Shown here: positions 6,112-11,402 of the stretch, one piece after another
Numbering within the stretch: the first letter of the stretch is position 1
Layout: each line of letters opens with the position of its first letter
Assembly: GCF_000151105.2 (NCBI RefSeq)
Contig: NC_014804.1
Span: forward strand, 496,001-560,000
Reading direction: 5' to 3'
Length of the DNA stretch: 64,000 nucleotides
DNA from: Thermococcus barophilus MP
Lineage (GTDB): Archaea; Methanobacteriota_B; Thermococci; Thermococcales; Thermococcaceae
Made by a program: the position numbers and the translations under genes
Notes under the pieces: generated by a model
Databases searched by the model: none
Seen by the model: the letters and a program-made list of their open reading frames with translations, nothing else
Told to the model about the DNA's origin: nothing

Positions 6112-6441
6112 ATGGATGAGTTCATTGTCGCAACCACCGAGCATGTTCCTGGTTACAAAGTCGTCAAGGTTCTTGGCATTGCGCGAGGGGCAACCGTTAG
6201 GGCTAAGCACATTGGAAAGGACATCCTTGCTGGGCTTAGAAATATAGTTGGTGGTGAGGTCAAAGAATACACTGAAATGCTTGCCGAGGCGAGAGAAGTG
6301 GCAATTCAAAGGATGATCGAACATGCGAAGAGCATGGGAGCAAATGCCGTCATTGGCGTTCGCTTCATGACCTCGAGCATTGCCGCTGGAGCCGCTGAGA
6401 TTTTTGCATATGGCACGGCAGTTATTCTTGAGAAAGAGTAG
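6112..6441 (+). CDS. UPF0145 (YbjQ) family protein
   Basis: 109 residues matching the YbjQ/UPF0145 family along its length: N-terminal VATTEHVPGYKVVKVLGIARG, then ARGATVRAKHIGKDI and the C-terminal GANAVIGVRF core. These small proteins form homopentamers in known structures and have been linked to metal binding, but the function is open. GGGGTGAT precedes the ATG. Its last 20 bases overlap a convergent short reading frame of the peptide operon. Confidence 0.85.
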   Translation: MDEFIVATTEHVPGYKVVKVLGIARGATVRAKHIGKDILAGLRNIVGGEVKEYTEMLAEAREVAIQRMIEHAKSMGANAVIGVRFMTSSIAAGAAEIFAYGTAVILEKE

Positions 6442-6535
6442 TTAACGTATCAATGACTTCCTCAATCTTTGGTTTTTGTGATATAATCGATCCAAAAAGG
6501 AAAATGAGAGTAGACAAATAAATTAAACGAGACAT
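6422..6535 (-). CDS. 37-residue predicted membrane peptide
   Basis: Short frame beginning MSRLIYLSTLIFLFGSII, a hydrophobic helix, followed by a charged tail KPKIEEVIDTLTTLSQE. A GGTGA ribosome site that overlaps the previous stop lies 8 bases before the ATG. It is the last gene of the peptide operon and its 3' end overlaps the convergent UPF0145 gene by 20 bp. One helix plus an acidic tail would fit a small immunity or accessory factor, but I have no family match. Support is coupling and ribosome site only. Confidence 0.4.
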   Translation of the reverse strand: MSRLIYLSTLIFLFGSIISQKPKIEEVIDTLTTLSQE

Positions 6536-6542
6536 TGGGAAT

Positions 6543-6650
6543 TCACCACAATAAGGCAATTAGGAGAGTAAAAGCAACAAGTAAAACGGTTATTGCGTCT
6601 ATAACCCAGTTGTCATGTGCGGTCTTGCCTTTGGGCATTTTCATATCCAT
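6543..6650 (-). CDS. 35-residue predicted membrane peptide
   Basis: Short frame starting MDMKMPKGKTAHDNWVIDA and ending with one hydrophobic helix, AITVLLVAFTLLIALLW. A GAGGG ribosome site lies 8 bases before the ATG and 33 bp separate it from the preceding peptide gene. The positively charged N-terminus and single C-terminal helix resemble small immunity proteins in bacteriocin clusters, which is an inference from position and topology only. No family is recognised. Confidence 0.45.
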   Translation of the reverse strand: MDMKMPKGKTAHDNWVIDAITVLLVAFTLLIALLW

Positions 6651-6682
6651 GTTCGTTTCCCTCTGAGATGTTGTCTGAGAAG

Positions 6683-6919
6683 TTATACTCCCACGATAAC
6701 TACTCCAAGAAACCATCCTGTAGCTGCACCTAGCGTGGCTACTATGCCAGCCTTAATAAGTGCTGTTCCCATCGCTAGCCCCCCACCAATTGTTACAGCC
6801 CCCATTTTCTCGGAATGTGTAATTTTCCATACTACAAAGCTTTCATGCCCAACTGCTCCTCCTACCACCATCCCCATGGCTATCAATACCAACCCTATAA
6901 CTAAAGCCTTCCTCCACAT
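6683..6919 (-). CDS. Bacteriocin-like hydrophobic peptide B (leader-core precursor)
   Basis: 78 residues with no cysteine. The first 23 (MWRKALVIGLVLIAMGMVVG onward) form a basic plus hydrophobic leader nearly identical to that of peptide A at 7815-8105; the DNA there is about 90% identical over 70 bp. The rest is Gly/Ala/Val-rich with helical stretches (about VTIGGGLAMGTALIKAGIV and a final GWFLGVVIVGV) and shares no obvious sequence with peptide A. I start at the ATG at 6919 because GGGGTGA sits 5 bases upstream; a GTG at 6928 is possible. The size, composition and adjacent DUF95 gene resemble AS-48-type circular bacteriocin precursors. Cleavage and cyclisation are inferred, not seen. Confidence 0.6.
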   Translation of the reverse strand: MWRKALVIGLVLIAMGMVVGGAVGHESFVVWKITHSEKMGAVTIGGGLAMGTALIKAGIVATLGAATGWFLGVVIVGV

Positions 6920-6924
6920 TTCAA

Positions 6925-7480
6925 TCACCCCAAGCTTTCGGCAATTTTTGCCGTAATAGTGCTCTCAATTAATGCGGCAATAAAAATCAGAATCATTGAG
7001 ATAAGAAAGAGTTTAAAGAATTCTTTAGCGTCCTCCTCGCTAATTATTTCTTCTTTCTTACCCAAGGCGAATCTTAACAGCTCGTAAGGAATCTTAAAAC
7101 CAGCAGCACCAGCAATGATGATAGCAGGGATCTCGAAGATGCCGTGAGGGAGAATCAAGAGGAAGAAAGTTTTAAGCTCCCCTAAATTTAGATAAGCGTA
7201 GAACATTACCCCTACGTTTACACCATTAAAAATCAAGTTTAAGAAAGTTAAGCCACCAAACGTTAAAACACCGCCGAAAGAAAGCAATAATACAACCTTA
7301 AGGTTGTTAAGGAAAATATAATGGAAAGAAAACATGTTCTCATTAAATTCATGTTCCAAAAGGGGTGCAGAATTAATATCATAAAGAATCCCATAACGTT
7401 CTGAAAGACTTAAAACCAAAGAGAAAGCCAATAGAGAAAAGCAATGACGAAAGAATCAAAAATATTCTTCGCCTTTTCAT
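6925..7480 (-). CDS. SpoIIM/DUF95 family membrane protein, apparent frameshift near the N-terminus
   Basis: The frame ending at 6925 carries a typical SpoIIM/DUF95 body: NNLKVVLLLSFGGVLTFGGL, the conserved LPHGIFEIPAIIIAGAAG motif and three to four membrane helices. In that frame the only start is a TTG at 7431 without a ribosome site. In the neighbouring frame an ATG at 7480 with GAGGTG upstream (7489-7494) encodes MKRRRIFLILSSLLFSIGFL, the expected first helix of the family. Joining the two needs a one-base shift at about 7400-7455, perhaps in the T4 run at 7411-7417. DUF95 proteins are standard partners in circular-bacteriocin operons and are also widespread archaeal membrane proteins. The gene is coupled to the one upstream. 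Confidence 0.75.
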
Positions 7481-7492
7481 AAATTTAACACC

Positions 7493-7768
7493 TCAAGGCA
7501 AGATTAAAAATGCTAGTGAAGCTATGATCTCTGTTATACCCGCAATTTTTAATATCATCTGATCTCTTGAGTTCAGGTAAAATATCATTCCCACAAACAA
7601 CATTGCAACGGGAAATAGCGGAAACTTGAAACCAAATCTGAGATAAGCAACAGCATAATACATAGATGATATTAAAGAGGATATGAAAAGCGTCTTGTAA
7701 GTTCCCCGAATAATTATAAAACCAATACCCACAAGGAACAACAAGATAGCAATTGTACTCGTAGCCAT
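7493..7768 (-). CDS. Small four-helix membrane protein of the peptide operon
   Basis: 91 residues, almost entirely hydrophobic, with four predicted membrane segments (around IAILLFLVGIGFIII, LFISSLISSMYYAVAYL, FPVAMLFVGMIFYL and KIAGITEIIASLAFLIL). I choose the ATG at 7768 because GGAGGG lies 7 bases upstream; a TTG at 7825 would extend it by 19 residues into the stop of peptide A. The family is not recognised. Placed between the peptide gene and the DUF95 gene, it occupies the position of small immunity or maturation membrane proteins in circular-bacteriocin clusters (inference). Confidence 0.6.
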   Translation of the reverse strand: MATSTIAILLFLVGIGFIIIRGTYKTLFISSLISSMYYAVAYLRFGFKFPLFPVAMLFVGMIFYLNSRDQMILKIAGITEIIASLAFLILP

Positions 7769-7814
7769 TATGCTTCCCTCCAAAGGGTAAAAGTAAAAGT
7801 TCGAGAATAAAAGC

Positions 7815-8105
7815 TCATCCAACAATCAAAACTCCAGTCCCTATTAAACCTAACCCAAGATACGATGCAACGACAGTAGCAGTTGTTCTAACAGCCTGAC
7901 GCTCGGCAATGCCCCAAAGTATACTACCAGCCGCAGTTACAGCAGACCCTGCTTCGACGGTACTCTTATCCCCACTTGTGTCCTTATGATGCCATGCATG
8001 CCAAGCCCATAATGCGAGTCCTATATTGCTGCTTTCAACCGCTCCTCCAACTACCATCCCTATGGTTATCAATACCAACCCTAACACTAAAGCCTTCCTC
8101 CACAT
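7815..8105 (-). CDS. Bacteriocin-like hydrophobic peptide A (leader-core precursor)
   Basis: 96 residues, no cysteine. The leader MWRKALVLGLVLITIGMVVG matches peptide B almost residue for residue, then the sequence diverges completely: a Trp/His-rich patch (ALWAWHAWHH), a polar linker (KDTSGDKS), then Ala/Gly/Val-rich helices ending GLIGTGVLIVG. The ATG at 8105 is supported by AGGAGGTG five to six bases upstream; an in-frame extension to 8168 has no such support. It is first in the minus-strand operon, about 65 nt after the probable transcription start. A conserved leader with a variable core is the hallmark of ribosomal antimicrobial peptides; activity is not shown by sequence. Confidence 0.6.
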   Translation of the reverse strand: MWRKALVLGLVLITIGMVVGGAVESSNIGLALWAWHAWHHKDTSGDKSTVEAGSAVTAAGSILWGIAERQAVRTTATVVASYLGLGLIGTGVLIVG

Positions 8106-8194
8106 TTGGGACACCTCCTGGTTCTTCATATTATGAATGTTGTGGATACTACTTAAAGTTTTCTTCATAATTATTGTCGCCGTGTTTTTTTTTT

Positions 8195-8231
8195 CTTATA
8201 ATTTTGTTTGAACAAGTGACAATATATAAAA
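8195..8231. promoter_or_regulatory. Divergent promoter pair between the peptide operon and the ABC operon
   Basis: On the plus strand AATATATAAAA (8221-8231) lies about 50 bp before the permease start. On the minus strand TTATAAG (8195-8201) lies about 25 bp before the likely start of the peptide-operon transcript. The two boxes are only about 20 bp apart, so binding at one would interfere with the other. A T-run (8185-8194) sits in the minus-strand leader. Confidence 0.55.
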
Positions 8232-8280
8232 GGTAATTATTTTAAACAAATTAATTGCTATTCAAGAACTGGTGATGAGT

Positions 8281-9252
8281 GTGAAAGCCATCAACATAGC
8301 GATGAAGGATTTCGAAGTTAGCATTAGAACAAGAAAATTTCAAATAATAATAGCTCTCTTCACAATAATCTCTCTGGGAATGATTTATAGCTCAAAAAGA
8401 CTTGGCATAAGTGCAAACTTATATAAAACGCCCTTCCAAATGCTCTTCCTCTCAAGCTTCTCCAATGCGTTCAACTACTCAATAGCCTCATTAGGAATTC
8501 TCCTTGGAGCAACTGCAATAAACGAAGAAATTGAAAAAGGAACCCTAAAGTTAGTAGCTTCAAAGCCAGTATATAGGGATGAAATAATTGCTGGCAAGCT
8601 CCTGGGGGGTTTGTTAACCCTTAGCGTAGCCTTAGCGTTGTTCTATATCTTAACAGTGGCTTTTGCACTAATCTTAGGAGTTCTAATAACCGGAGATGAC
8701 CTGATGAAGTTTTTAGCAACTTTTCCCTTCAGCACGCTCTATGGATTAGTTTTCTTGAGCTTGGGTCTGTTAGTTTCAACACTCATTAAAAAATCTAAAA
8801 ATGCTCTAATAATGTCAATTTTCCTGTTTGTCTTCTTTGGCTTTTTGCTTTCAATAATCGCTGGGGTAGTAGCATTTGCAGTGGCTGGCTTGCCTCCAGT
8901 TCCCAATATCCCCGAGAATGCTACAAATCTGAGCGATGAACAGCTTCAAGAGATATTCCTTAAAGACCAGGCATATCAGGCATGGCTGACCAAGCTGACA
9001 ATAACGGCAGAGAAAATCCTTTATATCTCTCCAAACTACCATTATCAGGAAATAATCAGGATACTCTTTGGAGGAAAACCTCAAATTAGTGATATAGTAT
9101 CGGCCTTAGCTTATGAGCAGAGTGTCGTGGAGGAAAGATCAATCGTAGAGAGTCTTGGGCTGGTATGGGAGAATATCACTGCACTACTTATCATGTTCAT
9201 TTTTCCTTTTGCGATGGCCTATGTAAGGTTCATGAAAGCTGATTTGAGGTGA
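8281..9252 (+). CDS. ABC-2 type transporter permease 1 (NosY-like)
   Basis: 323 residues with about six membrane helices and a large extracellular loop (about residues 205-265). It shares with the two other permeases here the motifs NIAMKDF at the N-terminus, a [26 protein letters not shown] segment after helix 2, and the end [12 protein letters not shown] start at GTG 8281 because the paralogues start at the equivalent codon and GGTGATG precedes it; ATG 8275 is possible. It heads the plus-strand operon and is followed by an ATPase remnant, 4 bp away. Export of the neighbouring peptides or self-protection against them is a reasonable inference. Confidence 0.85.
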
Positions 9253-9256
9253 TAGT

Positions 9257-9451
9257 ATGTATGCCATAGAGATTGAAAACCTCACGAAGAGTTACGGGAA
9301 TTCTAAAGCTGTCGACGGTTTAAGTTTGGAGGTGCATAAGGGAGATGTTTTTGGATTTCTTGGCCCAAATGGTGCCGGAAAAACCACAACAATACTAAGC
9401 ATGTTGGGCTTAATAATCCCTGACAGTGGAACCGTAAAAATCTTGGGATAG
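9257..9451 (+). pseudogene. Truncated ABC ATPase (remnant of a duplicated permease-ATPase module)
   Basis: 64 codons encode the first part of a CcmA-type ATPase, including Walker [14 protein letters not shown], and are nearly the same as the start of the complete ATPase at 10488. Translation stops at TAG (9449-9451) after VKILG. One base out of frame the next codons continue DIFKG, as in family members, and then homology ends. There is no signature motif or Walker B, so it cannot be an active ATPase by itself. A deletion after tandem duplication explains the structure. Confidence 0.85.
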
Positions 9452-9565
9452 ATATCTTTAAGGGACTCCTACCACATATTATTCCGGTCAAACTTATATT
9501 AATAGTAAGCTTTATAAACAAGCACAGCATAAAGGAATGTAAAGCTTACTTTACAGGTGGTGACA

Positions 9566-10487: not shown

Positions 10488-11402
10488 ATGTACGCTATAG
10501 AGATTGAAAACCTGACAAAAAGTTATGGAAATTTAAAGGCTGTTGATGATCTTACATTAAACGTCGAAAAGGGCATTGTATTTGGATTTCTTGGCCCGAA
10601 CGGTGCTGGAAAGACAACAACGATATTGAGCATGCTCGGCCTTATCATACCCGACAGCGGGAGCATAAGAATTCTCGGACACGACGTTTTCAGGGAGCCA
10701 ATTCAAGTAAAAGAAAAGATTGGATTTTTGCCAGAGAATGCCACCATCTATGAAGAACTAACAGCTTGGAAAAACTTGGACTTTTTCGCAAACTTCTATA
10801 GGTTTTCACGGCAAGAAAAGGAAAAGCGCATTGAAGAGCTTTTAAAGCTCGTTGGACTTTGGGATGTGAAGTACAGGAAAGTTAAGACATTTTCAAAAGG
10901 AATGAAGCAACGCCTGCTGCTTGCTCAAGCTCTGATAAACGATCCCGAGGTTCTTATCTTGGATGAGCCAACGAGTGGACTCGATCCTGAAGGTGCTTAC
11001 TTGGTGAAGAGCATCGTAAAGGAAGAGCGCGAAAAAGGGAAGACGGTGTTCTTCTCCTCACACGTATTGAGCGAAGTCGAAGAACTAAGTGATAAGGTTG
11101 GAATAATTGTGAAGGGCAGGCTTAGAGCATTAGGAACCCTTGAGGAAATTAAAAAAGAATTCATGGAGCTTGAAGGGTATGAGATAAAGGTGGAAACCAA
11201 ACAGCCTCTGCCCGAAATTGATCTGCCGGAAATAATAAGCATCAAACGTATCGGCGATAGTAGGGCAATAATATTTGCAAAGGAGGATATCAGGGAAGAG
11301 CTTTCGGAATACCTGTCAAGGAAAGGGATAACGATTCTGAGCCTTGAAATAGAGGAGCCAAGTTTGGAGGATGTTTTCTTGAAGACAATCTACAAGAGGT
11401 GA
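10488..11402 (+). CDS. ABC transporter ATP-binding protein (CcmA/NatA-like)
   Basis: 304 residues, complete. Walker [11 protein letters not shown] (about 38-47), Q-loop region, signature FSKGMKQR (about 138), Walker B VLILDEPTSGLDP (about 158) and H-loop FFSSHVLSEVEE are all present, with the C-terminal extension usual for this class. It is the only intact ATPase of the locus and must serve all three permeases if they are active. It overlaps or abuts the next gene through GAGGTGAT. Confidence 0.93.
   Translation: MYAIEIENLTKSYGNLKAVDDLTLNVEKGIVFGFLGPNGAGKTTTILSMLGLIIPDSGSIRILGHDVFREPIQVKEKIGFLPENATIYEELTAWKNLDFFANFYRFSRQEKEKRIEELLKLVGLWDVKYRKVKTFSKGMKQRLLLAQALINDPEVLILDEPTSGLDPEGAYLVKSIVKEEREKGKTVFFSSHVLSEVEELSDKVGIIVKGRLRALGTLEEIKKEFMELEGYEIKVETKQPLPEIDLPEIISIKRIGDSRAIIFAKEDIREELSEYLSRKGITILSLEIEEPSLEDVFLKTIYKR

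Follow-up and report, generated by a model that had tools for sequence, protein, structure and literature searches.

Conserved leaders over exchangeable cores in DUF95 cassettes of Thermococcaceae: candidate precursors of secreted archaeocins

The window analyzed here (a 64,000-nt stretch of DNA, part of a 2.01-Mb archaeal chromosome that its relatives place in the Thermococcaceae) contains a 72-nt direct repeat (6850-6921 and 8036-8107, 90% identical) that forms the 5' ends of two genes, A and B, with unrelated remaining parts (Table 1). Leaders of the same type precede different cores in Thermococcaceae of five genera, in cassettes with a small membrane partner and a SpoIIM/DUF95 protein. 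Judging from sequence and gene content, A and B are likely to be precursors of secreted, membrane-active archaeocins that would act in the manner of the DUF95-dependent circular bacteriocins known from Gram-positive bacteria.

Table 1. Coordinates of the features in the window
Feature	Position	Strand	Description
Precursor peptide B	7815..8105	-	96 aa: MWRKALVLGLVLITIGMVVGGAV plus 73-aa core with WAWHAWHH patch; start codon 8105
Leader of B, conserved	8040..8105	-	22 codons
Precursor peptide A	6683..6919	-	78 aa: common leader plus 55-aa core VGHESFVVWKITHSEKMG...; start codon 6919
Leader of A, conserved	6854..6919	-	22 codons; 89% nt identical to B leader
Partner of B	7493..7768	-	Small membrane protein of 91 aa, hydrophobic and cationic, with about 3 TM; ORF reaches 7825 from a TTG
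Partner of A	6543..6650	-	35 aa, single TM; 57 aa from first ATG at 6716
SpoIIM/DUF95 membrane protein	6925..7480	-	PF01944 E=1.9e-32 on downstream frame (6925-7431)
BRE/TATA-like element	8146..8163	-	GAAAACTTTAAGTAGTAT; upstream of B; also present with other cassettes; gene A lacks one
ABC-2 permease PERM1, dedicated	8272..9252	+	Transcribed divergently; its close orthologs (61-90%) are confined to genomes with cassettes
ABC ATPase, truncated 5' fragment	9257..9451	+	64 aa; carried in with PERM1
Inserted island	6441..9478	.	3.04 kb; G092 (same genus, no cassette) has the empty site

Two leader-sharing genes and their relatives

The original prediction, that near-identical leaders are followed by unrelated cores, was borne out: residues 1-23 match at 20 of 23 positions, and 59 of 66 leader nucleotides are identical against 77 of 162 aligned core nucleotides (Fisher 1e-9). 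Within the 22 leader codons, the seven nucleotide differences comprise three that change a residue (I/L, A/T, M/I) and four silent ones, and core identity (29%) is close to the shuffled mean of 27%. Both genes lie on the minus strand, a detail missing from the prediction, and the cores are indeed unequal in length, with 55 and 73 residues after residue 23 replacing the 54 and 72 given earlier. The Trp/His patch attributed to A is in fact found in B, as A has only VWKITH. The closest core relative of B is encoded at L076:4640-4951 (core z 16), while relatives of the A core are found at L070:6731 (69% aa) and L065:7656 (53% aa).

When the leader was compared with the genomes of relatives (one genome per species), as had been proposed, it was found at the beginning of peptide genes more widely than chance would allow: searches and a profile search recovered the motif MWRKAL[AV][LI]GLVLMA[IL]G[MV]VVGGA followed by various cores in 17 of 94 Thermococcaceae genomes (G000; G004-006, G008, G009; G023, G043; G074-077, G079, G080, G083, G085; G093). 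The boundaries of the small ORFs were assigned in the present analysis. The highest copy number, seven, was observed in G085, with six copies in one tandem array and one on another contig. Among 24 full-length precursors, the leaders are on average 77% identical in amino acids and 75% in nucleotides and the cores 32% (shuffled 27%, 95th percentile 36%), thus extending the predicted pattern of conserved leader and diverged core beyond the two window genes. Leader identity and core identity are uncorrelated in this set (Spearman 0.09, p=0.13), and most core pairs are unalignable above shuffled controls, so the genes are not the simple diverged duplicates devoid of variation that had been named as the counter-explanation. 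Leader amino acid identity was not significant as a genus marker. Leader nucleotide identity is higher within genera (4 of 1000 or 2000 permutations, relatedness ignored), with a small effect of 3%, as expected of native leaders or of gene conversion.

All leaders have the same layout of an n-region WRK, approximately 15 hydrophobic residues, and GGA. The cores have 50-87 aa and are mostly hydrophobic, usually rich in Gly, Ala or Val, and contain 0-2 Cys; three KYALHKYN-type cores are non-hydrophobic (GRAVY about -0.2 to -0.3). All of the 22 tabulated C-termini except the aberrant L060 end in L, A, V, G or Y, which is compatible with cyclisation and is not evidence for it. The AlphaFold2 model of the B core is all helix and too poor (pLDDT 52, pTM 0.24) for a usable fold search or the assignment of a fold. 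The peptides had no family match in Pfam or NCBIfam, and searching the PDB by sequence, be it with the B core, the precursor alignment or the DUF95 alignment, gave nothing meaningful.

A profile search across 115 genomes of the phylum, among them the 94 family genomes, yielded no convincing relatives outside the Thermococcaceae; its weak hits fall on the signal peptides of long secreted proteins (including L109-L111). Viral contigs contained no relatives, and a scan of genome contigs gave only Thermococcus sp. JdFR-02. In genus g4, some secreted proteins of 320-380 aa carry a leader-like signal peptide (MGWKRALAFALVVLFFGMTLGGASA; L046:1495 onward).

Cassette order, permease and island

The cassettes are ordered peptide, small membrane partner and SpoIIM/DUF95 protein, all on one strand, and PF01944 is present in nearly every one of them. 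A DUF95 gene, usually in single copy, occurs in all 94 family genomes except four incomplete ones; extra copies were found in 17/17 peptide genomes vs. 3/77 others (Fisher 5e-16). Two of these three exceptions (G078, G086) are degraded cassettes with core remnants, and the third (G020) is the frame of an unrelated 540-aa ORF. At the degraded loci (L084 in G078, L085 in G086), remnants of core, partner and DUF95 can still be recognized, a picture of cassette decay.

In the window, B is followed by its partner, DUF95 with a frameshifted N-terminus, A, and the partner of A. The N-terminal TM segment of the DUF95 protein (MKRRRIFLILSSLLFSIGFLFG, ATG at 7480) lies in a different frame than the rest, which places a frameshift near 7410-7420, at a short T run; this is either an assembly error or an inactivation, and the copy may thus be inactive. 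A structure model of DUF95 (pLDDT 74) had no significant fold match in the PDB. The ATG of A sits 5 nt past the DUF95 stop codon, which suggests that A is read from the transcript of B, and the same junction of DUF95 stop and leader (GGGTGATT.AAATGTGGA) recurs in L061, L063, L064 and L077. A would then rely on the promoter of B, apparently having kept its own partner and not its own DUF95 gene. The promoter element was discarded as a system-specific marker: the identical 18-mer also precedes the gene of an unrelated proteasome-like subunit, and it is therefore a generic strong archaeal promoter. In genus g5, a gene for a 429-aa AAA-type ATPase (MISKETWGKIIRDYLEW...) is repeatedly located 3' of DUF95 (L068, L069, L070, L073, L075, L076).

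The PERM1 subtype of ABC-2 permease was detected in 15/17 cassette genomes vs. 0/77 others (Fisher 1.5e-15), the best match in the 77 cassette-free genomes being <=48% identical. The two cassette genomes that lack it (G004, G009) both have damaged cassettes, and in G009 a PERM1 fragment remains beside the cassette (L064). A resident ABC operon (permease, ATPase, Ig-like NEW3 protein, permease), mostly placed between moaC and an rtcB-like gene, is present in every genome examined around this site, and PERM1 is usually inside or next to such an operon that has the ATPase. Several genera have it in place of the first operon permease, and others have it next to the cassette; in g5 it is for the most part not linked to the cassettes, so that linkage alone cannot account for the co-occurrence. 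The shared export or maturation step that had been predicted to act on the leader is supported by these sequence data, as the common SpoIIM/DUF95 protein and the one dedicated permease subtype would be a plausible machinery for it.

Comparison with G092 delimits the inserted island of the window: identity is 96% up to about 6440, and homology returns at about 9479. The island holds A, DUF95, partner, B, PERM1 and the truncated ATPase start. This last fragment (9257-9451) nearly duplicates the beginning of the intact ATPase (10488-11402) and is a scar left by the arrival of PERM1.

Core exchange and core-partner pairing

Among 19 complete cassettes, mean amino acid identity is 77% for the leader, 33% for the core, 43% for the N-terminal half of DUF95 and 81% for its C-terminal half. 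The original prediction also called for a check on recombination between leader copies and variable cores, and between genomes (one per species) such recombination was found, with core and partner crossing genera. In the cross-genus pair G080 (L074:8001) and G093 (L077:7878), nucleotide identity is 73% in the leader, 93% in the core and 90% in the partner (leader vs. core, Fisher 2.8e-5), and drops to 72-77% in DUF95 (C-terminal half 76%), with the housekeeping genes moaC, ATPase and rtcB at 74-78%. Since the leader and the C-terminal half of DUF95 are at housekeeping level, both look native, and core and partner appear to have been transferred recently. A second chimera (L070:8665 and L074:5864) has nucleotide identities of 77% in the leader, 92% in the core, 94% in the N-terminal half of DUF95 and 76% in its C-terminal half. 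The leader-core contrasts of L061/L068 and L061/L076 have the same direction and are not significant (p=0.07, 0.12). Within a genome, leaders reach 92% identity over unrelated cores (L077/L078, A and B of the window, L076). Leader-anchored exchange of core and partner is therefore very likely.

The partners have 31-173 aa and 1-4 TM segments, are hydrophobic, and carry a net positive charge in 21 of 23 cases; that of A has a relative in the 31-41 aa partner belonging to the A-type core in L070 (z 11.7). Among 253 cassette pairs, all ten pairs with the closest cores had related partners (10/10), as against 1/222 of the core-unrelated pairs; where cores are moderately related (z 6-22), the partners are mostly unrelated. 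Linkage alone could partly explain this matching. By size, charge, TM segments, hydrophobicity and core specificity the partners resemble the immunity proteins of circular bacteriocins, a putative role that we infer for the partners of A and B as well. In three cassettes (L070:8665-9220, L074:5650-6196, L079:7201-7740) the partner consists of a TM segment and a copy of a segment of its own core (KYHxYMELYRxAL...YKSxAEEYS; 32 aa, 60% or more identical to the core; 20/32 identical, E=2e-11). Such a core-copying partner behind its own TM helix might possibly provide immunity by mimicry.

Known systems, proposed function and alternatives

Circular bacteriocins (enterocin AS-48, circularin A, leucocyclicin Q and gassericin A groups) likewise consist of a leader and a hydrophobic core of about 60-80 aa. 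All known clusters encode a PF01944 (SpoIIM/DUF95) protein and an ABC transporter, together with a small immunity protein that is cationic and hydrophobic (PMC6131525; control L083), and upon knockout of the DUF95 gene lcyD the mature circular peptide stays inside the cell (PMC6131525). In an hhalign comparison, the DUF95 of the cassettes proved homologous to SpoIIM from an AS-48-type cluster (prob 95, E=2.6e-8). In contrast to the 'highly disparate' bacterial leaders (PMC6131525), the thermococcal leader is of one conserved type over unrelated cores, and here the host is archaeal, cassettes form tandem arrays, and core and partner are swapped under a resident leader. A, B and nine other precursors did not match the circular-bacteriocin families PF09221 and TIGR03651, while the AS-48-type control did (4e-13 and 1.6e-23), and membership in a circular-bacteriocin family is accordingly not claimed. 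Archaea are unmentioned in the circular-bacteriocin surveys PMC8534725, PMC7132975, PMC5695211 and PMC8659200.

The arCOG01996 cassettes of Pyrococci, Archaeoglobi and methanogens, in which DUF95 accompanies small diverged membrane proteins, some of them near SalXY-type ABC transporters, were described as DUF95/COG1300 'dark matter' and regarded as defence or membrane-remodelling systems in the sections we draw on of Makarova et al. 2014 (PMC4158269) and 2015 (PMC5898192). The thermococcal loci share this layout, a multi-gene cassette that joins DUF95 to small diverged membrane proteins (PF01944 plus partner genes), and are, going by those sections, almost certainly the same; a leader-bearing precursor, core-partner pairing, leader/core recombination and a dedicated permease are not mentioned there.

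Double-glycine class II bacteriocins also combine a common leader ending in GG with variable cores and cognate immunity, but their leaders are amphipathic and of the LSxxEL type, whereas the thermococcal one is hydrophobic with a WRK start. Export by this route was rejected, as the C39 peptidase (PF03412) was found in 0/94 Thermococcaceae genomes, the control genomes being positive. Halocins, sulfolobicins and archaeal lanthipeptides are antagonistic peptides of archaea too; unlike them, the cores described here have 0-2 Cys and had no database match to any of these groups. We know of no halocin, sulfolobicin or archaeal lanthipeptide described as linked to DUF95.

From the gene content we infer export, immunity and killing, and a secreted antagonistic peptide with cognate immunity is quite likely. 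The leader would steer every precursor to one common membrane machinery, either the host signal peptidase or DUF95 and PERM1 with the resident ABC ATPase; that DUF95 and the ABC transporter act on the precursor is rather likely. The leader would then be cut off and the core set free, perhaps to be ligated head to tail on the circular-bacteriocin model, cyclisation being a tentative suggestion. The core would harm the membrane of related archaea without the cassette, the partner would confer core-specific immunity, and PERM1 would export the peptide or keep it out. Core and partner very likely move as one unit through two crossovers, the first in the conserved leader and the second inside DUF95, and a strain would thus switch weapon and shield together, keeping its own leader and machinery. 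Delivery by the leader to DUF95 and the ABC transporter, export and attack is the model favoured by the circular-bacteriocin gene set and the homology of DUF95 to the AS-48-type cluster. Counting against it are the missing bacteriocin-family match of the precursors, the low-confidence model of the B core, the three non-hydrophobic cores, the possible share of linkage in the core-partner matching, the frameshift in the window DUF95, and the fact that DUF95 occurs throughout the family and serves other roles too.

A serious alternative, which we do not favour but regard as a real possibility, is that these are linear archaeocins of the Sec route, with the leader removed by the host signal peptidase, cores active on membranes in linear form, no cyclisation, and DUF95 as an accessory for immunity or export. 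In its n-, h- and c-regions the leader is laid out like a Sec signal peptide, and it is similar to those on some secreted Thermococcus proteins of 320-380 aa; the cassette lacks a recognizable cyclase-type enzyme. However, a recognizable peptidase or cyclase is also missing from known circular bacteriocin clusters, for which DUF95, a small cationic partner and an ABC transporter are the defining gene set (PMC6131525), and the 77% amino acid conservation of the leader far exceeds the need of a generic signal peptide. An intracellular toxin-antitoxin or anti-virus abortive module, in which the core is a membrane toxin held by the partner and DUF95 a regulator, could be envisaged since a toxin-like hydrophobic peptide adjoins a cognate small membrane protein, the islands insert and decay, the partner of the KYALHKYN type reproduces a core segment, as would suit an antidote, and membrane-associated defence was suggested for arCOG01996 loci by Makarova et al. 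2014 (PMC4158269). We deem it unlikely: the conserved, removable-looking leader, DUF95 and the co-occurring ABC permease point to export, and tandem arrays of different cores in one genome fit a weapon repertoire better.

If the module served to remodel membranes or form vesicles, a role proposed for DUF95 loci of arCOG01994/01996 (PMC5898192), the peptides would be structural membrane components instead of antagonists. Every product is a membrane protein, DUF95 among them, and one partner type is weakly Yip1-like (E=0.0015, below cut-off), but the patchy distribution (17/94), the empty site, degraded copies, hypervariable cores, core-matched partners and horizontal core replacement are signatures of conflict and not of housekeeping, which makes this reading highly improbable. 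Just as improbable are pheromones, with cores as strain-specific signals and partners as membrane receptors: matched hypervariability and leader-core modularity are also seen in signal-receptor pairs, but the partners, at 31-173 aa with 1-4 TM segments, contained no sensor, kinase or DNA-binding domain, no conserved regulator is linked, and the cores are long and hydrophobic for signals.

Few antagonistic peptides are known from archaea. If the archaeocin reading is true, the Thermococcales have a bacteriocin-like system that is common, heat-stable and cultivable; a concrete function can be given to the fast-evolving 'dark matter' loci of arCOG01996; and work on the roles of leader and DUF95 in circular-bacteriocin maturation gains a useful natural series of leader/core recombinants. 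Genetic tools exist for Thermococcus and Pyrococcus, which makes the proposal testable. On sequence grounds, the cassettes could even constitute a previously unrecognized archaeal RiPP-like weapon class, which we consider quite possible while holding it loosely: a resident, host-specific promoter-leader and the C-terminal half of DUF95 would be fixed, core and immunity modules would be swapped across genera, and in one subtype the immunity protein would duplicate, in membrane-anchored form, a part of the toxin core that it belongs to (mimicry).

A related arrangement was found on plasmid pMETHO01 of Methanomethylovorans hollandica (L112), where a clearly related DUF95 gene (hhalign E=3e-29) follows two genes for hydrophobic 66-aa peptides (L112:3658-5306), with ABC-2 permeases downstream and an ABC ATPase and a YIP1 protein nearby. 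The peptides had no family match; in contrast to the thermococcal precursors, they have a different leader and are near-identical (3 substitutions apart), not diversified. The locus is a candidate circular-bacteriocin-like locus in a methanogen plasmid, and the related DUF95 behind two near-identical peptide genes suggests that the scheme reaches beyond the Thermococcales.
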